Below, piece by piece: positions 8,941 to 60,283 of a stretch of 64,000 bases of DNA. Source of the DNA: Nitrosomonas cryotolerans ATCC 49181 (GTDB lineage Bacteria; Pseudomonadota; Gammaproteobacteria; Burkholderiales; Nitrosomonadaceae); assembly GCF_900143275.1 (NCBI RefSeq), contig NZ_FSRO01000001.1, positions 1,356,116 to 1,420,115 of the forward strand, given 5' to 3'. The position numbers were made by a program, and so were the translations under genes. Each line of letters starts with the position of its first letter. Position 1 is the first letter of the stretch. The notes under the pieces are model-generated. The model searched no databases and was not told where the DNA came from. It saw only the letters and a program-made list of their open reading frames with translations.

Positions 8941-10772
<1,832 letters not shown>

Positions 10773-10784
10773 CGGAGCCGAATC

Positions 10785-11060
10785 GTGGATGATGACGAGT
10801 TACGTAAATCAGTAGAACGGCAGGTAAAGCGTATGCAACGTGCGGAAAAGGAGCGTCCCACGTTGTTAGCTCAATCGATATTCATGGGCACGCTGTCATT
10901 GTTGTTTGTGCTGCCGGTCATAGTCGGGGTCTATTTAGGTAACTGGTTGGATAGTCGGGTGGAAGGTTACTCGATTCACTGGACAGTAGGATTGCTTGTT
11001 GTCGGCCTTGTGATTGGCATAGTAAATGTATATTTATACATTAAGGGTGATCACTTATGA
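10785..11060 (+). CDS. atpQ: AtpQ/AtpI-like small membrane protein of the N-ATPase operon
   Basis: A 91-residue protein with a charged N-terminus (about 30 residues) and two membrane helices (about 33-52 and 64-86). This is the arrangement of AtpI/AtpZ-like proteins, called AtpQ in N-ATPase operons, which are thought to help c-ring assembly or ion supply. The start is GTG at 10785 with GGAG seven bases upstream. The stop overlaps the atpB start. N-ATPase operons normally carry a second small membrane protein, AtpR, between this gene and atpB. Here there is no room for one. Confidence 0.8.
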   Translation: MDDDELRKSVERQVKRMQRAEKERPTLLAQSIFMGTLSLLFVLPVIVGVYLGNWLDSRVEGYSIHWTVGLLVVGLVIGIVNVYLYIKGDHL

Positions 11061-11743
11061 AATCAGCCGTTGTGGTGTTTAATGTCGGAATGTTTGAAAT
11101 TACTTCGGTTGTGGTGACAACATGGGGCATTATGCTGATACTGGGCGTATTTTGCTGGCTTGCCACACGACGACTGTCGATTAGTCCCGGACCGTTACAG
11201 ACAATGTTGGAGGGAATATTATTGGCAATGGAGGAGAGCATCAAAACGGTGCTGCCAAGTCACGCCCAGCAACTGTTGCCGTTCATTGCAACCTTGTGGA
11301 TTTATATTGTCATGGCAAATATGACAGGGCTGATTCCCCAGTTACATTCTCCTACGGGCTATTTATCAGTAACAGCAGGTTTAGCATTACTGGTGTTTAT
11401 GTCGGTACATTGGTTTGGCATCCGCAGTGAGGGTGCTTCCCGCTATTTTAAGCATTATCTTAGTCCAACACCCTTGTTACTCCCCTTTCACCTGATCAGT
11501 GAGGTGACACGCACTGTTGCATTGGCAGTCCGTTTGTTTGCTAATATTATGAGTCTGGAATTGGGTGCGTTGCTGGTATTGCTAGTCGCTGGTTTGTTGG
11601 TGCCTGTGCCGTTGTTAATGCTGCATATTATTGAAGCGCTGATACAGGCTTATATTTTTGGCATGTTAGCGCTGGTTTATATTGCAGGTGCGATGCAATC
11701 GCAACAGGGTTATGAACAAAATGAGGAAGGAGAGAGCGTATGA
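11057..11743 (+). CDS. atpB: N-type ATP synthase subunit a
   Basis: The membrane stator subunit that forms the ion half-channels, 228 residues with five to six hydrophobic helices. The family block SEVTRTVALAVRLFANIM holds the essential arginine facing the c-ring, and IIEALIQAYIFGMLALVYI is the last helix. The start overlaps the previous stop (ATGA), and the stop in turn overlaps atpE. Confidence 0.92.
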   Translation: MKSAVVVFNVGMFEITSVVVTTWGIMLILGVFCWLATRRLSISPGPLQTMLEGILLAMEESIKTVLPSHAQQLLPFIATLWIYIVMANMTGLIPQLHSPTGYLSVTAGLALLVFMSVHWFGIRSEGASRYFKHYLSPTPLLLPFHLISEVTRTVALAVRLFANIMSLELGALLVLLVAGLLVPVPLLMLHIIEALIQAYIFGMLALVYIAGAMQSQQGYEQNEEGESV

Positions 11744-12006
11744 ACGACATGTCCTGGTTCACCATATTTTCTACTGTAGGTGCGGCGCTTGCTGTTGCGA
11801 TCGGTATGATGTTTCCAGCATTGGCAATGGGTCGCGCAATTAGCCAAGCACTGGATGCAATCGCGCGGCAGCCGGAAGCTGAAAAATCGATTATGCGTAC
11901 TTTGTTTGTTGGCCTCGCCATGATTGAGTCACTCGCGATTTATGTACTGGTGATTGTGCTGATCATTCTATTTCGTAATCCTTTGCTGGAATACCTGGTT
12001 AAATAG
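11740..12006 (+). CDS. atpE: N-type ATP synthase subunit c
   Basis: The rotor-ring subunit, 88 residues, two helices joined by the ARQPEA loop. The ion-binding carboxylate is the Glu in helix 2 (AMIESLAIY). Aligned on ARQP with Na+-specific c subunits, the ES pair and the Tyr are kept, but the position of Gln32 is Met and Thr67 is Leu. Sodium specificity, expected for many N-ATPases, is therefore not assured, and protons may be the coupling ion. It has a good GGAAGGAG site and overlaps atpB by four bases. Confidence 0.92.
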   Translation: MNDMSWFTIFSTVGAALAVAIGMMFPALAMGRAISQALDAIARQPEAEKSIMRTLFVGLAMIESLAIYVLVIVLIILFRNPLLEYLVK

Positions 12007-12017
12007 GGGTTAAGAAC

Positions 12018-12764
12018 GTGGATTTTGACTGGACGACTTTTATTCTTGAAATAATTAATTTCCTGATTCTTGTCTGGATTTTAAAACGATTTCTATATCA
12101 GCCTGTCCTTGACGTTATCGCCCGTCGCCGTATGGGTATTGAGAAAGCACTGGCTGACGCCCATCGTATTGAAGCCGAAGCGAGTGAACTGAAACAGAAA
12201 AATGAACAACGTTTGATCGAATGGGAAGCTGAAAAAGAAGCGGCTCAGGCGCGTCTAATGGCTGAGTTGGCTGCGATACGCGAAAGAAAAATGGCCGAAC
12301 TAGAGGCTAAAATCGCAGAAGAGGTTGAGCGGCGTCGTGTTTTAAATGAACGCGCCCGACTTGATTTTGAATACATGATGGAGGAAAAGGGTATTGCGCA
12401 AGGTGCGCTATTTTCTACCAAATTACTTTCCAGGCTGGCTTCGCCGGAATTGGAAGCGCAGCTATATGCACTGTTGCTGGAAGATTTACATCGCCTCGGT
12501 AAAGAAAATAAACGGGCCGTAACTGAGGCTGCTGCGGTGCCTGGGTTACAGATTAAAGTCCAGAGCGCATTCCCGTTGGAACATAATAAGCAGGCGGAAT
12601 TATCTCATTCTCTGGCAGAGGTAATCGGCAGGATGCTACCGACTAGATATGAGATTAATCCGGAATTAATTGCAGGGTTTCAAATAGAAATTGGTCCCTG
12701 GATTTTTCATGCAAATTTGCACAATGAATTGAAATTTTTCAGTGGTGCACTGCAGCATGCCTGA
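12018..12764 (+). CDS. atpF: N-type ATP synthase subunit b with delta-like C-terminus
   Basis: The peripheral stalk, 248 residues. One N-terminal membrane helix ([18 protein letters not shown]) is followed by a long charged coiled coil (about 35-120). The C-terminal 60 residues (VQSAFPL, then [19 protein letters not shown]) resemble the end of the F1 delta subunit. Since no atpH is present, this gene probably supplies both functions, as described for N-ATPases. It starts with GTG at 12018 after AGGGGTTAAGAAC. Confidence 0.88.
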
Positions 12765-14244
12765 TAATGTGATGGTATCTACTGATTCACAGGCCGATTC
12801 GCCTTTGGCAAAACAGGCGGTGTGGCTGTCAGATTATCAGTATGGCTTACGTTTATCGGAACAGGGTACGGTTATTTCCGTGGGAGATGGCATTGCCTGG
12901 ATCGACGGATTGCCCTCAGCTTGTATGGACGAGGTAATCAATCTGGAAGATGGTAGTAGTGCGTTGGTTTTTCATCTTGCACATGATCGTGTGGGTGCAA
13001 TATTGTTGCGTCAGACTAAGCAGTTAGCTGCGGGCACTTCAGTTTATCTGACAGGCGAGCGCTTGAGTATCGGTGTTGGAAATGGCTTATTAGGCCGCGT
13101 GATTGATCCATTAGGCGTACCGCTTGACAGCGCCGGATCTATTTCATTTACCGCACATCGAAAATTAGATGTCCGTTCACCGCCAATAATTGCACGTGAT
13201 TTCGTAGTGCAGCCGATGTATACCGGCAATAAAATCGTTGATACGCTGATCCCCATTGGTAAGGGACAACGTCAGCTGATTATCGGGGACAACGGCTGTG
13301 GCAAGAGCGCATTAGCAATTGATGCGGTTATTAACCAGCGGGGTAAGAATGTTTTTTGTGTTTATGTCCTGATTGGCCAGAAGCGCTCTGCCGTTGTAAA
13401 TACCATTGAAACTTTGCGTCGTGAGAGCGCTTTAGCTTATACCACAGTGCTGGTGGCAGAAGCGACGGCTATGTCGGGGCTGAAATATCTGGCACCGTTT
13501 GCTGGCTGTGCTGTGGCTGAAGGCTGGATGGCAACAGGACAGGATACTTTGATTGTATATGATGATTTAAGTACGCATGCACGCAGTTATCGTGAACTTT
13601 CACTGCTTTTACGCAGACCTCCGGGCCGAGAAGCTTATCCTGGCGATATATTTTATCTCCATTCTCGATTACTGGAGCGCTCCACGTGTTTGTCGGCTAG
13701 AGAGGGCGGTGGTAGCATGACTGCATTGCCCATAGTTGAAACGGAGCAAGGCGAAATTGCTTCATATATTCCTACGAACTTAATTTCGATTACTGATGGT
13801 CAGATTTATTTTGACCACCAGTTATTTGTCCGCGGTTTTTTGCCAGCGATTGATGTAACGCGTTCGGTGTCACGTATTGGCGGTAATGCACAACACCCGA
13901 ATATTAAGAAAGAAGCGGGACGTATGAAACTGGATTATTTGCAGTTTCTTGAGCTAGAAGTATTTACCCGTTTTGGTTCGCGGCTGGAAGCGGGCATGGA
14001 AGCACGTATACGGCGTGGACAGGTACTACGGGAGATGCTTAAACAGGAACTGCTCACGCCGTTGACGATTGAATTTCAGATGGCTTGGTTAGTAGCATAT
14101 AACGAGGGATTGTTTGATCAAATTGAATTAGAGCAGGTGAGTGCATATTTGATAAAACTACAGGAGCTCGTTGAACGCGCCAGTTTAAGTATTGAAGAGG
14201 GACGGGATCAGTGGAAAATTCTACTTCACGCCTGGTTAAAATAG
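12757..14244 (+). CDS. atpA: N-type ATP synthase subunit alpha
   Basis: The non-catalytic nucleotide-binding subunit of F1, about 495 residues. The Walker A equivalent is GDNGCGKSA, Walker B is LIVYDDLS, and [10 protein letters not shown] carries the arginine finger that completes the catalytic site on beta. The open frame extends to a GTG at 12742. The ATG at 12757 overlaps the atpF stop and is preferred, with ATG 12772 possible. Sequence identity to the housekeeping alpha is visibly low at the N-terminus, as usual for N-ATPases. Confidence 0.92.
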
Positions 14245-14251
14245 AGCTGTA

Positions 14252-15124
14252 ATGAGTAAGCGACGCGAAGTGAAGGAGCGACTGGCAACGCTGGATGAGA
14301 TCGACGGTATTATGAGTGCGATGAAGAATCTGGCTCTGCTTGAAATTCATAAGCTAGAAACTTTCTCGGCCACACAACATCGTGCAGTAGCCAGTATTGA
14401 ATCGGCCGCACAGGATTTGTTGGCTTTCTATCCACAAATGTACAGGTCCGCAGATGATTTACAGCAACTCTGGATTATTATTGGTTCAGAGCGTGGTTTT
14501 TGCGGTAATTTCAATGAATCTTTGCTGCAGTTTCTGAATATGAATGCGCCGCAGGCTGATACATTGTTATTGGCAGTAGGGCGCCGGCTGGAAGCCAAGT
14601 TGCACGATGATGCGCGGATTAGCGATTTTATCGCAGGTCATAGTGTAGCAGAGGAAGTCCCTGTTACTTTACTGCGTCTGAGCGCGGTATTAAACCGATT
14701 GCAGCGACAACTAGAGCTGGCAAAGATAGCCTGCATCAGTGTAGTTTATTATGATAATAAAAGTGATCAGATTAGGTTGCGTCAATTGCTGCCGTTGACG
14801 ACGCTTGACACAAAATCAGCTTATTCTCATCCGCCTCAATTAAATCTGGAACCCTCGTTATTTCTTTCTGAACTAACCGATCAGTATTTGTATGCTGTAT
14901 TGCATGAAGTATTTTATTCCTCGTTAATGATGGAAAATCATAAGCGATTAGAGCACATGGATAGAGCCATTCACCGTTTAAAGAAAGATGAAGCCAGGCT
15001 ACGTTTACGATACAACAGATTACGCCAGGAAGAAATTATCGAAGAAATCGAAATTATTATGCTGAGCGTAGAAGCATTGTCTGATGATGAGTCCAGGCCT
15101 GCAGTTTCGAGACCATCTTTTTAG
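14252..15124 (+). CDS. atpG: N-type ATP synthase subunit gamma
   Basis: The central rotor shaft, 290 residues. The N-terminal helix (REVKERLATLDEIDGIMSAM) and a C-terminal helix that begins near YAVLHEVFYSSLMMENHKR form the coiled coil, with a Rossmann-like middle containing GSERGFCGNFNE. The middle is typical, while the C-terminal tail is longer and more acidic than in housekeeping gamma. It starts 7 bases after atpA and ends the ATPase operon. Confidence 0.9.
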   Translation: MSKRREVKERLATLDEIDGIMSAMKNLALLEIHKLETFSATQHRAVASIESAAQDLLAFYPQMYRSADDLQQLWIIIGSERGFCGNFNESLLQFLNMNAPQADTLLLAVGRRLEAKLHDDARISDFIAGHSVAEEVPVTLLRLSAVLNRLQRQLELAKIACISVVYYDNKSDQIRLRQLLPLTTLDTKSAYSHPPQLNLEPSLFLSELTDQYLYAVLHEVFYSSLMMENHKRLEHMDRAIHRLKKDEARLRLRYNRLRQEEIIEEIEIIMLSVEALSDDESRPAVSRPSF

Positions 15125-15128
15125 TCAT

Positions 15129-15563
15129 ATGACTGCTTTATCTGTTCGTCTGAGGCCTTCGACACGACTGACAGCCATACTTAGTATGGCGCATGGTATT
15201 GCATTTGTTTTAGTATGCCTGCTCCCACTACCGATGAGTATTCAACTGATCGGAGCAGCAGCGCTGGCGTGTAGTTTGGCTTTCAATCTGGGGCGGTATG
15301 GCTTGCTTAATACGGCTGGGGCAATAGTGGCTTTCGAGCTATCTGATGAGTTACGATGTACACTTGAAACTCGTTGTGGTCGATTGATGGTCTGTACTAT
15401 TCTAGCCAACACCTTTGTTGCTTCTTACCTGATTGTCATGAACCTAAAACCCGATAATTGTTTTTTTTCGCGCAGTATCGTAATTCTGCCGGATGGGATT
15501 GATGCAGAAGAATTCAGGCAATTACGTGTATTGTTACGTTGGAAATGGAAAAATAGAAATTAG
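15129..15563 (+). CDS. YgfX-like membrane protein
   Basis: A 144-residue protein starting with LRPSTRL, then two adjacent membrane helices (about 20-60), and ending in SIVILPDGIDAEEFRQLRVLLRWK, the block that marks the YgfX/CptA family. E. coli YgfX is a membrane protein proposed to be a toxin that affects cell shape. The frame is open from 15084 inside atpG. I place the start at 15129, where the family N-terminus begins, though no clear ribosome-binding site decides it. The proximity to atpG suggests co-transcription. The stop lies in the target duplication of a MITE. Confidence 0.7.
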   Translation: MTALSVRLRPSTRLTAILSMAHGIAFVLVCLLPLPMSIQLIGAAALACSLAFNLGRYGLLNTAGAIVAFELSDELRCTLETRCGRLMVCTILANTFVASYLIVMNLKPDNCFFSRSIVILPDGIDAEEFRQLRVLLRWKWKNRN

Positions 15564-15652
15564 GAGACCTTTGCAAAACCCCAATAGTTGAAAAATTAGC
15601 CCTTTATAATCAATAGCCAAAAACTTCTGGTGAGGGCTTTTGCAAAAGTCTC
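15564..15652 (+). mobile_element. 89-bp MITE, family A, copy 2
   Basis: Near-consensus copy with ends GAGACCTTTGCAAAAC and CTTTTGCAAAAGTCTC. It is flanked by ATTAG on both sides (15559-15563 and 15653-15657), a 5-bp target duplication. It sits directly after the ygfX-like stop codon, where its inverted-repeat ends could fold in the transcript. Confidence 0.92.
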
Positions 15653-15916
15653 ATTAGGTCTGAATATAATCGTGGGGGTATTAATGTATTGTAGGTAATA
15701 GGATAGAGATCAATTGTTTTCTTTATGGTTATTATTTTTTTGTTACCCGGATTATAAACTGAGAGCGATATTTCCTGTTATTAAATTTTCATGTATAGGG
15801 TATAGGACAGATACGTTTAAAAATCCGATTAGTGTCATTTAGCAATCTTGTAATGGCCGTGATGATAGGATCACTCGACAGTATCCAATATGAGTAACTA
15901 AATTAATAGAGAATCT
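15653..15916. other. intergenic region before the three-gene flavin/diiron operon
   Basis: No gene. It must contain the promoter of the operon starting at 15917. No operator was recognised. Confidence 0.4.
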
Positions 15917-17035
15917 ATGGCTGAGTATTTTAATATCGTTGAAGAAATTGCAACAGGAATTGTAGCAACAGCTGCGCCTGAGATTGACAAGAAAGGCCTA
16001 TTTCCGCAGTTAACGATTGATGCACTGCGTGATGCCGGATTGCTTGGATTGATTAGCGCCAGAGATATGGGAGGGATGGGAGAAGGACCTCGCGCTGCTG
16101 CAATGGTTGTTGAACGTTTTGCGCGCGAATGTGGATCGACGGCAATGATTCTGTGCATGCATTTTGCAGCAGCGGGGGTTGTCGAGAAATATGGCTCGGA
16201 GGAAGTGCGCAGGCAGTTCGCAGAGGGGAAACACCTAGGTACATTGGCTTTCTCGGAGACGGGATCGCGCAGTTATTTTTGGGCGCCAGTGGGTACAGCT
16301 GTGCGCGGCGAGCATGATATTTACTTGAATGGAAAGAAAAGCTGGGTCACGTCAGCTCATCATGCGACATTGTACGTGTGGTCGAGTAAGCCTATTGCTG
16401 CTAAAGGCGCAAGCACGCTCTGGCTGGTCCCGAGAAATAGCAGGGGTATTTCGGCACCGGATAGTTTCGATGGTCTGGGGTTACGCGGCAATGACTCGAC
16501 ACCCGTCACGGCTGATGATGTTAGAGTGTCTGAGAACAATATGCTTGGGAAGGATGGCGAAGGTCTCACAATTATGTTGGATACGGTGCTGCCGCTATTT
16601 AATGTGATGACCGCGGCAGCCGGGATCGGATTGATGGAAGGGGCAACAACTGCTGCGTGCAAACACGCATCGGATACATGTTATGAGCACCTTGATTCAG
16701 TGTTATGCGATCTGCCTACAATTCGAGCATATCTGGCGCGGATGCGGATCGCTACTGATCAAACACGTTGCTTGTGGCTGGATACGCTTGATGCCATAGA
16801 AACGAATCGGGAGGATGCGATGCTGCGTGTACTGGAATGTAAGGCGGCAGCCGGCGAATCTGCGACTCAGGTACTGGATACAGCGATGCGGGTTTGTGGT
16901 GGTGCTGCATTTCGGCGCGAAGTGGGTGTGGAACGACGCTTTCGTGATGCTCGTGCCGGTACGGTGATGGCACCAACCACGGATCAATTATATGATTTTA
17001 TCGGTAAAACCATTTGTGGCTTGCCGATCTTCTGA
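15917..17035 (+). CDS. acyl-CoA-dehydrogenase-like flavoprotein
   Basis: A 372-residue protein with the acyl-CoA dehydrogenase fold: an N-terminal helical domain, a beta domain with the FSETGSRS flavin-binding block and WVTSAHHA, and a C-terminal four-helix domain ending VERRFRDARAGTVMAPTTDQ. In true dehydrogenases the last block reads ..RDAR...I.EGT.., with a catalytic Glu in some subfamilies. Here AP stands in place of EG. That suggests a flavin monooxygenase (DszC-type) or another non-dehydrogenase role, which is an inference. It is the first gene of a tight operon with a PhnD-like protein (11-base gap) and a TusA-diiron fusion. No acyl-CoA metabolism genes are nearby. Substrate unknown. 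Confidence 0.8.
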   Translation: MAEYFNIVEEIATGIVATAAPEIDKKGLFPQLTIDALRDAGLLGLISARDMGGMGEGPRAAAMVVERFARECGSTAMILCMHFAAAGVVEKYGSEEVRRQFAEGKHLGTLAFSETGSRSYFWAPVGTAVRGEHDIYLNGKKSWVTSAHHATLYVWSSKPIAAKGASTLWLVPRNSRGISAPDSFDGLGLRGNDSTPVTADDVRVSENNMLGKDGEGLTIMLDTVLPLFNVMTAAAGIGLMEGATTAACKHASDTCYEHLDSVLCDLPTIRAYLARMRIATDQTRCLWLDTLDAIETNREDAMLRVLECKAAAGESATQVLDTAMRVCGGAAFRREVGVERRFRDARAGTVMAPTTDQLYDFIGKTICGLPIF

Positions 17036-17046
17036 GAGTACAAACA

Positions 17047-17901
17047 ATGTCCAATACATTATTGATCGGGGCGGTTGCGTATGATCCTAAAGTTATCACC
17101 ATCTGGGATGGCTTTCAGAAATGGTTCGCTGCGCATGGATTTGATCTTGACTACATCCTGTATTCAAATTATGAACGACAGGTCGCGGGACAGTTTGCTG
17201 GTCATTATCATGTTGCGTGGAATTCTCCACTGGCATGGTTGCAGACGGAACGCATTGCCGCCCGGGTAGGTCGACAAGTTGAAGCGCTTGCGATGCGTGA
17301 CACCGATTGTGATCTGACCAGTGTCATTGTGGTGCGCAGTGATTCATCGATTGACTCGATTGAAGCTTTGCGTGGTAAAACGGTTGCAGTGGGTGCTTCC
17401 GACTCGCCGCAAGCATCTCTCATTCCATTGATTCATCTGGCGGAAGCTGGACTAGAGCCGGGAAAAGACTTCACTGTGCGCCCGTTTGATGTTTTGGTCG
17501 GCAAGCATGGTGATCATATAGGCGGTGAGCGTGATGCGGCGAAGGCGTTAATTGAAGGCACAGTAGATGCGGCTTGTATGATCGATGGGAACCATCTGTT
17601 GTTTTCAAAAGAAGGTACCTTATCATCGGGTAGTACGCGTATTTTGGCGCAGACTGACGAGTATGATCACTGCAACTTTACGGTACTCGATGGTCCACTC
17701 GAAGATACCATTATGCGTTTTCGTGAGCTGTTGCTGTCCATGTCTTACGACGACCCGACGGTGCGTTCATTGCTGGACCTTGAAGGGTTAAAGGTATGGA
17801 AGCCAGGTCGTACTGAAAAATATGCGCTACTAGCACGCGCCATTGATCGATTTGGGACTGTCGATGCCTTTGTAACCAAATTAAGCAAACAGTGTGCATG
17901 A
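17047..17901 (+). CDS. PhnD/SsuA-like substrate-binding-fold protein without signal peptide
   Basis: A 284-residue periplasmic-binding-protein-II-like sequence (IEALRGKTVAVGASDSPQAS is the characteristic block, followed by GKHGDHIGGERDAAKALIEG). It resembles the phosphonate/sulfonate/thiamine-precursor binding proteins. It has no signal peptide or lipobox, and no permease or ATPase lies nearby, so it probably acts in the cytoplasm as a ligand carrier or an enzyme. Start ATG 17047 lies 11 bases after the flavoprotein gene. Its last four bases (ATGA) overlap the start of the next gene, so the three products are probably made in fixed ratio. Confidence 0.72.
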   Translation: MSNTLLIGAVAYDPKVITIWDGFQKWFAAHGFDLDYILYSNYERQVAGQFAGHYHVAWNSPLAWLQTERIAARVGRQVEALAMRDTDCDLTSVIVVRSDSSIDSIEALRGKTVAVGASDSPQASLIPLIHLAEAGLEPGKDFTVRPFDVLVGKHGDHIGGERDAAKALIEGTVDAACMIDGNHLLFSKEGTLSSGSTRILAQTDEYDHCNFTVLDGPLEDTIMRFRELLLSMSYDDPTVRSLLDLEGLKVWKPGRTEKYALLARAIDRFGTVDAFVTKLSKQCA

Positions 17902-19100
17902 TAGAGCGTAAGGTATTTGCAGTTGATCTGGGTAGCCTGGGATTGGATCAAGGTGGTCACCTCATGATAAAACGCGCGTTACGTACGGCACCACGGGCTA
18001 TTCCGGTCGCTGTGCATGGGAATGCGCCAACGCTTGCCGTTCATTTGCGTGCTTGGTGCCGCGTGCAGGGCCATGATATTGAAATTTTGCAGGCTGCCGT
18101 GGATGGTCCCGTGGCATTGATTCACCGTGGCAACGTCGAAGCTGGTCGCTGGCGTGGCGCGACAGCGACGGGAGATGCCAAAGTACCGGCGGCGCATGCA
18201 TCTGCTTACTGGGGACTTGCGGGCCGCAGCGCGACCGTTGAAGCGGGTATGCCAATCTTCGATTTTCCACTCGATACACGTGCCGAAGTTTGGGTTAAGG
18301 AGGCTGCTCGATTGTATGCTCAGGCGGCGGCATCGCAGTGGAATCCTGCCACGGCGATTCCTTGGAATGCATCTTGCGATATTTGTGATGAAGTTGAGGA
18401 TGCGGTTGTGCAGGTCATGACCTATCTCATAGAAAATGAGACCGCAGCGCTAGTAATTCCGGCCCGTTTCGCTTCTCAGGTGCATCCTCATTTTCGTGAG
18501 GTAATGCAGCTTTTAGCTATCCAGGCTGCTGATGAAGCGCGTCACATTGAGGTATTTACGCGGCGTGCCTTGTTAAAACGTTCGAAACTTGGCCTGTCAA
18601 CTGTTGGCGGTCAATCTTCGCTAAAGACGTTGATCGATGAGCCTGATTTTGCACTCTCAGCGATGTTACTGTCAGTGCTTGGAGAAGGTAGTTTTCTGTC
18701 GCTGCTATCGTTTCTGCAACAGCATGCACCCGATCCGATTACACGTGAAATCGCGCGGCTTGTTGGACAAGATGAGGCGCGTCACGTTGCATTTGGTCTT
18801 GCTCACCTCACGCAACATGTACATGAAGAGCCTGCATTGCTTGGACGATTGGCGGATGTTATTGAGCATCGCCATGATGCGCTTATCAATACCGCTGGCC
18901 TCAACGAGGAGGTGTTTGATGCTTTAGTGCTGCTCGCTGCTGGATCATGGGAGCCGGAAGCATTGCGTACTGGATGGGAGAAGGTTCAGGTGCTGATTGC
19001 GGATATGGGTCAGGGACGTATACGCCGCTTACGTAAGATTGGTTTTGATGAGGAGGCCGCGCAAGCGCTATCTGCGCTGCATACGCGTAATTTTATGTAA
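17898..19100 (+). CDS. TusA-like domain fused to a ferritin-like diiron domain
   Basis: A 400-residue protein of two parts. Residues 25-65 (RALRTAPRAIPVAVHGN..., ending in RVQGHDIEI) resemble a TusA/SirA sulfur-carrier fold, but I see no catalytic CPxP motif. Residues 130-310 form a ferritin-like bundle with a complete carboxylate diiron ligand set: E181, E213 and H216 (DEARH), E263, and E293 and H296 (a second DEARH). Such centres do oxygenation or N-oxidation (AurF-like), desaturation or aldehyde chemistry; the reaction here is unknown. The start ATG 17898 overlaps the preceding stop (ATGA). A GTG at 17892 is also in frame. Last gene of the operon. Confidence 0.75.
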   Translation: MIERKVFAVDLGSLGLDQGGHLMIKRALRTAPRAIPVAVHGNAPTLAVHLRAWCRVQGHDIEILQAAVDGPVALIHRGNVEAGRWRGATATGDAKVPAAHASAYWGLAGRSATVEAGMPIFDFPLDTRAEVWVKEAARLYAQAAASQWNPATAIPWNASCDICDEVEDAVVQVMTYLIENETAALVIPARFASQVHPHFREVMQLLAIQAADEARHIEVFTRRALLKRSKLGLSTVGGQSSLKTLIDEPDFALSAMLLSVLGEGSFLSLLSFLQQHAPDPITREIARLVGQDEARHVAFGLAHLTQHVHEEPALLGRLADVIEHRHDALINTAGLNEEVFDALVLLAAGSWEPEALRTGWEKVQVLIADMGQGRIRRLRKIGFDEEAAQALSALHTRNFM

Positions 19101-19129
19101 CAATCGAGCGTGAGATGCAGGTATATCAA

Positions 19130-19219
19130 GAGACCTTTGCAAAACCCCAATAGTTGAAAAATTAACCTATTTATAATCAATAGTCGAAAATTTCTGGCGA
19201 GGATTTTTGCAAAAGTCTC
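19130..19219 (+). mobile_element. 90-bp MITE, family A, copy 3
   Basis: Starts GAGACCTTTGCAAAAC and ends TTTTTGCAAAAGTCTC. No clear target duplication remains. A family B MITE inserted six bases beyond its right end. Confidence 0.88.
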
Positions 19220-19225
19220 ATTGGA

Positions 19226-19525: not shown

Positions 19526-19888
19526 CTAGCGCATTTTCCAGGGCGTATAAGTTGTTTCTCTGTGGAAATTATCCCAGACATATGGCGGCTTAACGATTGG
19601 TGTAGTGGGCACCATGAATGTGACGATATCAACCGCGCCACTTAGGGTGCGTCCGAGCATGTGTACAATCCCAGTAAAAAATCCGGCGGTCACACCATAA
19701 GTCGCGCCTTCTTGTTTACCGGTGACTATCATGGTCTTAGGAATTTCTACAAAGCCAGTGACGACATTGGCAATCCCCATACCGAGTTTTTCACCTACCT
19801 GCCCAGGATAATCATGTGCCATTGCCAGATTGGGTGACAATGAAAACATTACGAATAGTATCAGCAGTGACTTGATAATCTTTTTCAT
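19526..19888 (-). CDS. exosortase-associated protein, TIGR04073-like
   Basis: A 120-residue exported protein. An N-terminal signal peptide (KKIIKSLLILFVMFSLSPNL) ends at AMA, around residue 24. The mature part has GEKLGMGIANVVTGFVEIPK, then a glycine-rich amphipathic helix-like stretch and GAVDIVTFMVPTTPIVKPPY, the pattern of the TIGR04073 family found in genomes with exosortase/EPS systems. Function is unknown. It stands alone. AGGATAATAACC precedes the ATG. No exosortase gene is in the window. Confidence 0.75.
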   Translation of the reverse strand: MKKIIKSLLILFVMFSLSPNLAMAHDYPGQVGEKLGMGIANVVTGFVEIPKTMIVTGKQEGATYGVTAGFFTGIVHMLGRTLSGAVDIVTFMVPTTPIVKPPYVWDNFHRETTYTPWKMR

Positions 19889-25098: not shown

Positions 25099-25515
25099 TT
25101 AATGCGGTCTTTGCTGTTGTTCAATATATTGCTTAATAATCGAGAGTGGTGCTCCACCACAACTACCCGCAAAATAGCTTGGACTCCAAAGCATATTACC
25201 CCAAAGCTTATTTTTAATTTCGGGATAATTCTTTTTGCGAATAAGTCGGCTTGAAACGCCTTTCAAACTATTTACCAAGTTAGAAATAGCAATTTTTGGT
25301 GGATAGTTAACTAAAAGGTGAATATGATCATGCTCACCGTTAAATTCCACCAATTCTGCTTCAAAATCCAAACACACATTTTTAAATATTTCTTCCAAAT
25401 CAATTAATACCCTTCCGGAGAAAACATCTCTGCGGTATTTTGTTACAAAGACCAAATGAACATGAAGATTAAAAATGCAATTTCTTCCTGTTCTTGCATC
25501 GTTATTAACTTGCAT
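25099..25515 (-). CDS. tnpA: IS200/IS605 Y1 transposase TnpA
   Basis: 138 residues. HUH motif EHDHIHLLVNYPP with H64 and H66 for the metal, and catalytic tyrosine Y130 in IIKQYIEQQ. The SYFAGSCGGAP block and the length are those of active members. No frameshift is visible, so the element may still move. Confidence 0.95.
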   Translation of the reverse strand: MQVNNDARTGRNCIFNLHVHLVFVTKYRRDVFSGRVLIDLEEIFKNVCLDFEAELVEFNGEHDHIHLLVNYPPKIAISNLVNSLKGVSSRLIRKKNYPEIKNKLWGNMLWSPSYFAGSCGGAPLSIIKQYIEQQQRPH

Positions 25516-25547
25516 AGACCAATTCCTTTTTGGTATAATTATATACC

Positions 25548-26771
25548 ATGAAGCAGATTATACGCAAAGCCTTTAAATCTCGACTCAATCCAAATTCTGA
25601 CCAAGTACAGAAGATGGTTGAGTTTGCGGGTGCTAATCGGTTTGTTTGGAATAAAGCCTTAGCAATGAATCTGTTCAGATTAGAGCAGAAACAGCCATTG
25701 CTTTGGTACAACGAGTTGTCATTTTGGCTAAAGCTATGGAAATCCTCAGAAGATTATGGATTTCTAAAAACCGTTCATTCTCAACCGTTGCAACAAGCCT
25801 TAAAAAACTTAGAAAAAGCGTTCAAAGACGGTTTTGATAAAAAACAGCCTTTAAAACGGATTCCAAAATTCAAGAAAAAAGGTTTGAGTGACAGCTTTCG
25901 TTATCCACAAGGATTTAAGCTGGAGCAAGAGTCTAGCAAAGTGTTCTTGCCTAAAATCGGTTGGGTGAAATATCGTAATTCACGCCAAGTCATTGGTGAC
26001 GTTAAAAATATGACGATTTCCCGTAAAGGCGGTTATTGGTACGTGTCGATTCAGACTGAGTACGAGACCGAGCTAAAGCGTCATAGCTCAACCAGTATGA
26101 TTGGTGTTGATATGGGCGTTACCCGCTTTGCAACCTTGTCAGACGGCTCATACGTAGAACCTTTAAACAGTTTCAGAAAGTTATCAAAGAAACTGGCTTT
26201 TGAACAGCGTAAGCTGTCTAAAAAAGTCCGTTTCTCTGCTAACTGGAAAAAGCAGAAACAAATCATTACCCGACTGCATGAGCGTATTGCCAATGCTCGT
26301 TTAGACTTCTTACACAAAACCTCAACCGAAATCAGCAAAAATCACGCAATGGTCGTAGTTGAGAATTTAAAGATAGGAAGCATGTCTAAGAGTGCCAAGG
26401 GCAGTGTTGAAAAGCATGGTAAAAACGTCAAAGCGAAATCGGGTCTAAACAAATCCATTCTTGACCAAGGATGGGGAATGTTCGTTTCGTTCTTGGAGTA
26501 TAAACAGGCTTGTTCAGGCGGGGATGTATTGAAGGTAAACCCTCAATACACCTCTCAAACCTGCCCTGGATGTCAACATGTTAATCGTGACAATCGCAAA
26601 AGCCAAAGTGCTTTTGAATGTACAGAATGTGGATTTAAAGCCAATGCCGACTTGGTAGGTGCCTTGAATGTACTTGAGCGAGGACATCGCTTGTTAGCCT
26701 GTGGAGTTGAAACGTTAGTTTCGTCTAAGAAGCAGGAACCAGTGGCAGTAGCAATACAAACCTACTCTTAA
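25548..26771 (+). CDS. tnpB: TnpB, RNA-guided nuclease of IS200/IS605
   Basis: 407 residues with all expected catalytic parts: RuvC D188 (IGVDMG), E272 (VVVENL) and D368 (NADLVGALN), plus a zinc ribbon with C339, C342, C358 and C361. TnpB family proteins are RNA-guided DNA nucleases that bias IS retention, guided by an omega RNA read from the 3' end of the gene and the right end of the element (here roughly 26650-26824). The gene is divergent from tnpA and apparently intact. Confidence 0.95.
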   Translation: MKQIIRKAFKSRLNPNSDQVQKMVEFAGANRFVWNKALAMNLFRLEQKQPLLWYNELSFWLKLWKSSEDYGFLKTVHSQPLQQALKNLEKAFKDGFDKKQPLKRIPKFKKKGLSDSFRYPQGFKLEQESSKVFLPKIGWVKYRNSRQVIGDVKNMTISRKGGYWYVSIQTEYETELKRHSSTSMIGVDMGVTRFATLSDGSYVEPLNSFRKLSKKLAFEQRKLSKKVRFSANWKKQKQIITRLHERIANARLDFLHKTSTEISKNHAMVVVENLKIGSMSKSAKGSVEKHGKNVKAKSGLNKSILDQGWGMFVSFLEYKQACSGGDVLKVNPQYTSQTCPGCQHVNRDNRKSQSAFECTECGFKANADLVGALNVLERGHRLLACGVETLVSSKKQEPVAVAIQTYS

Positions 26772-60194: not shown

Positions 60195-60283
60195 GAGACT
60201 TTTGAAAAATCGCTCACCAGAAGTTTTTGGCTATTGATTATAAAGGGCTCATTTTTCAACTATTGGAGTTTTGCAAAGGTCTC
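60195..60283 (-). mobile_element. 89-bp MITE, family A, copy 6
   Basis: Ends GAGACTTTTGAAAAAT and TTTTGCAAAGGTCTC. No target duplication visible. Lies between the DUF2149 gene and the zinc operon. Confidence 0.88.

Follow-up and report, generated by a model that had tools for sequence, protein, structure and literature searches.

A conserved operon of Nitrosomonas cryotolerans encoding an acyl-CoA-dehydrogenase-fold protein, a PhnD-like binding protein and a diiron fusion protein is very probably part of selenium metabolism

A stretch of 64,000 nucleotides from the genome of Nitrosomonas cryotolerans ATCC 49181 (hereafter the window) carries three intact genes, A, B and C, which the open reading frames (ORFs) of the window place in a tight operon on the same (+) strand. 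Comparison of this trio across genomes indicates that it very probably belongs to selenium metabolism, an association that was absent from an earlier sequence-only reading of the window and was added by the follow-up analysis reported here. The chances are about even that the trio acts upstream of SelD, releasing or delivering selenium. To our knowledge, how aerobic bacteria obtain selenium and hand it over for SelD is poorly known.

The comparison set consisted of 80 genome loci kept out of 161 that encode a relative. These loci were fetched with C as the query, so C is present in them by construction, and the presence of A and B was scored by tblastn. B adjoined C in 80/80 loci and A was present in 75/80. 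The loci without A were L013, L016, L023, L043 and L072, and in two of them, L016 and L043, a contig edge truncates the locus. A was partial at a contig edge in L018 and L031 and truncated in L069. The sequence-only reading had described three genes in tight succession, and the coordinates agree with it: the gap between A and B is 11 bases (B starting with ATG at 17047), and B and C are joined by an ATGA overlap (C starting with ATG at 17898). The nearest named relatives of the trio were Nitrosomonas records and its spread covers six phyla. These findings show that the trio is a real conserved unit, and the operon is probably a cytoplasmic one. In a scan of the neighbouring genes of 84 sources, no family besides A, B and C was found in more than 10 sources, and two families present in 10 sources were not identified. 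Within the same limits, neither a fourth constant partner nor a recurring transporter gene was found beside the trio, the recurring families being those of one lineage or of at most 10/84 sources. One family common to nine sources was SelD.

Selenium genes were found near the trio when the 80 loci were scanned by tblastn with SelA, SelB, SelD and SelU and by transfer RNA (tRNA) scans. A selenium gene was present in the flanks of 11/80 loci, corresponding to 10 distinct cases because strain E41 is recorded twice (L067 and L068). Variovorax (L044) and Ideonella (L069) have the order selA-A-B-C-selB-tRNA-Sec on a single strand. In L058, tRNA-Sec, selB and selA lay approximately 2 kb past C on the opposite strand, and in a Kofleriaceae locus (L026) tRNA-Sec was found approximately 50 bp downstream of C. 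In Comamonadaceae selD was located downstream of the trio. Locus by locus, selD came directly after C in L059, L067, L068, L070 and L079, followed a second A-like gene after C in L062, and was convergent to C in a locus of Eremiobacterota (L028). The selenium gene families were verified for L044, L059 and L062. Moreover, tRNA-Sec accounted for 4 of the 11 tRNA genes across the 80 loci. By a rough sum (1.37 Mb in 80 loci, multi-megabase genomes and three unlinked selenium clusters each), approximately one selenium-linked locus would be expected by chance, and kinship among the Comamonadaceae loci cuts the independent cases of linkage to perhaps five.

The genome-wide tests were carried out on 50 trio genomes, taken from 50 of the 80 loci. 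SelD, SelA and SelU passed their cut-offs in 49/50, 32/50 and 24/50 of them, respectively, and the sole genome lacking SelD (G217) has SelU. The baseline for SelD was 39/185 genomes of the class and 284/399 genomes of the order. The trio genomes were split into 22 with SelA only, 14 with SelU only, 10 with both and four with neither. A role confined to selenocysteine (Sec) was rejected, as the Nitrosomonadaceae genomes G195-G203 showed SelA in 0/9 and SelU in 8/9, and a role confined to selenouridine (SeU) was rejected as well, as 26/50 trio genomes lack SelU. Because the trio accompanies Sec users and selenouridine users, whether the two uses are combined or single, it is most simply placed at a step common to both, the making or delivery of reduced selenium for SelD.

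The same split bears on a separate SelD-dependent use, in which the trio would make a new selenium small molecule or cofactor from selenophosphate and B would bind selenophosphate. The coupling of the trio to SelD and the four genomes without SelA and SelU are consistent with it, as are the fold family of B, which binds phosphorus oxoanions, and the position of Cys209 of B at the place of the phosphite cap (described below). However, SelA or SelU is present in 46/50 trio genomes and the remaining four are draft metagenome-assembled genomes (MAGs), so that few genomes leave SelD for the trio alone; moreover, in L044 and L069 selA and selB enclose the trio. We consider such a separate product, the main rival of a step before SelD, unlikely. 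A SelD-dependent gene set of this kind is that of selenoneine biosynthesis (SenABC), described from Variovorax; it differs in being built on the Se-glycosyltransferase SenB.

Within Nitrosomonas, C was found in 15/85 genomes (in G283 as a fragment only) and SelD in 43/85. The SelD frames were 725-746 aa long in 18 genomes and 347-409 aa long in 25. The longer frame was taken as the fusion type known from the genome of N. cryotolerans, where SelD is an oxidoreductase-SelD fusion located beside MnmH/SelU, approximately 1.3 Mb from the trio on the same contig. All 15 genomes with C were among the 18 with fusion-length SelD, and C was found in 0/25 genomes with plain-length SelD and 0/42 genomes lacking SelD. 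The genomes with fusion-length SelD but no C (G004, G286 and G290) were 75, 84 and 87% complete, respectively. The hypergeometric probabilities, which carry no correction for kinship, were 8e-6 for C with SelD and 5e-14 for C with the fusion length. The two SelD types seem to be mutually exclusive in Nitrosomonas, no genome being listed with a full copy of both.

Protection against selenium would equally accompany SelD in Sec and SeU users. Here the trio would remove or repair harmful selenium (or selenium-for-sulfur) products in selenium-activating cells, and the oxidative folds of A and C would suit such a task. It is nevertheless improbable: genomes without SelD also meet selenium, yet none of the 42 such Nitrosomonas genomes has C, and no resistance, efflux or reductase gene recurred in more than 10/84 sources of the neighbour scan, in which the two ten-source families were not identified.

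Several observations weigh against the assignment to selenium metabolism or against a step before SelD. In 69/80 loci, the window included, no selenium gene was present in the flank, and in the window none was seen near the trio. Four trio genomes (G200, G207, G216 and G243, all draft MAGs) have neither SelA nor SelU. The baselines cover the class and the order, and trio-free Myxococcota, Acidobacteriota and Planctomycetota lie outside them. Within the order C was found in six genomes, all six with SelD, which says little because SelD is common there. Conversely, 278 of the 284 SelD genomes of the order lack the trio; as most SelD genomes do without it, the trio would be an optional route. In a tree built from 75 rows of C, those of Nitrosomonas formed one clade (100/100), apart from a Burkholderiales clade with Nitrosovibrio and other Nitrosomonadaceae. 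This topology suggests one acquisition of C by Nitrosomonas from outside, and with a single clade the coupling to fusion-type SelD may be one event kept together. Finally, the A and B relatives of Mycolicibacterium are accompanied by a radical SAM protein in the place of C.

Table 1. Coordinates of the trio and of the two parts of protein C in the window
Feature	Position	Strand	Description
Gene A	15917..17035	+	372 aa; acyl-CoA-dehydrogenase-fold protein without catalytic Glu
Gene B	17047..17901	+	284 aa; PhnD/PtxB-fold binding protein without N-terminal extension
Gene C	17898..19100	+	400 aa; TusA-like domain fused to ferritin-like diiron domain
TusA-like part of C	17916..18125	+	residues 7-76; CPxP Cys replaced by D/E-x-G-G/A
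Diiron part of C	18279..19094	+	residues 128-399; E181, E213-x-x-H216, E263, E293-x-x-H296

Protein A passed the cut-offs of PF02771, PF02770 and PF00441, the N-terminal, middle and C-terminal domains of its fold (Pfam E values of 3e-16 to 2e-5), and the GG and RDAR stretches of the acyl-CoA dehydrogenase fold are retained. The Glu of the YEGT motif of human short-chain acyl-CoA dehydrogenase (SCAD) aligned with A352 of MAPT in A (codon 16970-16972), in agreement with the sequence-only reading, which had noted an acyl-CoA-dehydrogenase-like protein with APT in place of EGT. Position 352 was A, G or S in 75/75 ungapped rows, showing that the catalytic Glu position is not kept, and residues M351, P353, T354 and D356 were identical in all 75. 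Isovaleryl-CoA dehydrogenase has its Glu at an alternative position; the comparison made here is with the SCAD position. Acyl-CoA dehydrogenase activity was rejected because the catalytic base is missing, and A is predicted to be a flavoprotein but not an acyl-CoA dehydrogenase. The second A-like gene of Lampropedia (L062, 11203-12318), located between C and selD, encodes a protein 44% identical to A.

Protein B belongs to PF12974 (102 bits compared to a cut-off of 27), and its model (predicted local distance difference test, pLDDT, 95.9) gave PhnD and PtxB as the best structure matches in Foldseek. In the model the first strand already starts at residue 5, so that a signal peptide would find no space, as judged from the model and not by a signal-peptide program. 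The description of B as a binding-protein fold with neither signal peptide nor transporter is thus upheld, and in both absences B differs from PtxB, HtxB and PhnD, with which it has the fold in common. The available text of PMC5700983 gives STS as the phosphite-binding motif of PtxB-type proteins. In a profile alignment to Te_PtxB, the place of this motif was taken by S120-P121-Q122 in 80/80 ungapped rows, Tyr55 was retained as Tyr42, and the ligand-capping Tyr208 was replaced by Cys209 (17671-17673), which was invariant in 81/81 rows; the His of the STS-H motif was ambiguous, being either H154 or R162. These site assignments come from aligning proteins that are only distantly related (structure matches of 16-21% identity). 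The likeness of B to TIGR04553, a putative selenate-binding family, was weak (45 bits compared to a cut-off of 250). A PhnD fold whose ligand cap carries an invariant Cys points to the binding of some compound that has a soft atom, and B may be a carrier.

The sequence-only reading had proposed a cytoplasmic oxidative pathway acting on a phosphonate, a sulfonate or an amine, with B as its carrier, in which case the selenium neighbourhood would be incidental. Membership of B in PF12974 is consistent with it, as is a weak resemblance between A and the SfnB and DszC families, at scores far under their cut-offs. In contrast, the genomic partners of the trio are selenium genes, both in the operons and through the coupling to SelD, and the STS motif is lost in B. 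This pathway was therefore dropped as the leading reading and is now very improbable; what stands of it is the conserved, probably cytoplasmic operon, its oxidative look and the binding fold, and what is not supported is the phosphorus, sulfur or amine compound as substrate.

Protein C passed no family cut-off in Pfam or NCBIfam, and its match to AurF (PF11583) reached 18.4 bits, under the cut-off of 29.6. Its model (pLDDT 94.3) placed aldehyde-deformylating oxygenases and VlmB-type enzymes at the top Foldseek ranks. These enzymes, which are the best Foldseek and PDB sequence matches of C (16-20% identity among the structure matches listed), have the same ferritin-like fold with the pattern E...ExxH...E...ExxH. 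C differs from them by its TusA-like domain and by the NFM at its C-terminal end, which was identical in 80/80 ungapped rows. The ligands E181, E213, H216, E263 and H296 were present in 81/81 rows and E293 in 80/81 (one Asp), so that the set of six diiron ligands named in the sequence-only reading is conserved among relatives, and C is predicted to be a diiron oxygenase or oxidase. Of the two outcomes that would have refuted the sequence-only reading, rare adjacency of the three homologs and diiron ligands that vary, neither was observed.

The other half of the proposed fusion, the TusA likeness, was moderate: PF01206 is precomputed on several relatives of C, and residues 20-90 of the C profile match TusA-sized genes, whereas TusA structures were reached only at E values of 0.8-0.9. 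At residues 17-21, most of the 81 rows have D/E-x-G-G/A-H, with no conserved Cys. Because C is without the sulfur-carrier Cys, TusA sulfur transfer was rejected. C would not be the first TusA fold in selenium metabolism, since YedF, a TusA/SirA-like protein, is published as tied to SelD by genome context, as C is here (PMC5322559, available text). In YedF the CPxP is retained and the additional domain is DsrE-like, whereas in C the Cys has gone and the additional domain is the diiron one. The trio is not among the selenium candidates given in the available text of the same paper (YedE, YedF, LysR-like and DUF3343).

The C profile had matches in 49/185 genomes of the class, mostly to TusA-sized genes or other diiron proteins, and besides the window only G130 reached approximately 1e-40, with a match confined to residues 122-386. 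L093, from a genome of the same class, encodes at 1141-2334 a diiron protein of 397 aa that is related to C over residues 122-386 only.

Together, these features lead to the prediction of a supply route in which reduced selenium would reach SelD, likely through O2-dependent release from a small selenium compound. The diiron protein and the flavoprotein fold suggest O2 chemistry, in which C, a predicted diiron oxygenase or oxidase, and A, a predicted flavoprotein, would act together. B would serve as a cytosolic binder that keeps hold of the selenium compound, its Cys209 turned towards the ligand, before passing the compound on, and the selenium would be handed over to SelD after its release. 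The substrate may be an organic selenium compound, for instance a methylated one. As a whole, an O2-using supply in which C, with a repurposed TusA domain, and the flavoprotein free selenium and the Cys209 binder carries it to SelD is put forward tentatively. If confirmed, it would add an O2-dependent branch to selenium metabolism and show a nutrient-uptake fold at work as a cytosolic selenium carrier. The trio offers three testable proteins, and its position between selA and selB in Variovorax provides a genetic handle.

Confirmation would also give a lead on two related families that are uncharacterised, Rv1679 and Rv1680 (NF049984 and NF049985), which were the best NCBIfam matches of A and B at 405.7 bits (cut-off 600) and 221.1 bits (cut-off 400), respectively. 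In the Rv1679-Rv1681 set, A and B relatives are adjacent and in the same order on plasmids of Mycolicibacterium vanbaalenii and Rhodococcus opacus. On the M. vanbaalenii plasmid the third gene encodes an Rv1681-type radical SAM protein (NF049973, 535.7 bits) and not C, and C gave no match to NF049973. On a Miltoncostaea plasmid, a B protein 60% identical to that of the window occurs with A and without C, approximately 6 kb from selD and selA. The A/B cluster of this plasmid (L089, 2199-11844) also contains DoxX, CMD, an Rv1681-like radical SAM protein, GT2, DUF2064, DUF2515 and a second radical SAM protein.

A literature search returned no paper naming Rv1679 together with Rv1680. Co-mentions of MoeX/Rv1681 concerned tuberculosis biomarkers, diagnosis and vaccines, with FadE16 in none of the text available from them. 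Combining terms for the trio and for selenium gave no match in a search that has preprints and most subscription papers outside its range, and the titles and abstract beginnings returned by further searches held nothing on the trio. In the available text of PMC5322559, PMC13188914, PMC9312934 and PMC5029168, there were no word matches for acyl-CoA, phosphonate or TusA.

Two imperfect direct repeats border the trio in the window (15559-15655 and 19125-19222; 83 and 93% in two pieces). Their ends were read by eye as short inverted repeats (GAGACYTTTGCAAAA), like those of a small mobile element, and a third partial copy of the repeat end lies at 60268. Upstream of the trio, the ORFs at 8953-15124 read by eye as what we take to be a complete ATP synthase set in N-type ATPase order. 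A 157-aa gene is located upstream of the trio in six loci, its copy in L002 (7458-7928) being without a Pfam or NCBIfam match. Downstream of the trio, a 121-aa gene (19526-19888, - strand) recurs in seven other Nitrosomonas-type loci. Further away, divergent ORFs at 25099-26771 look by eye like a transposase of the IS200 type and a TnpB-like protein.

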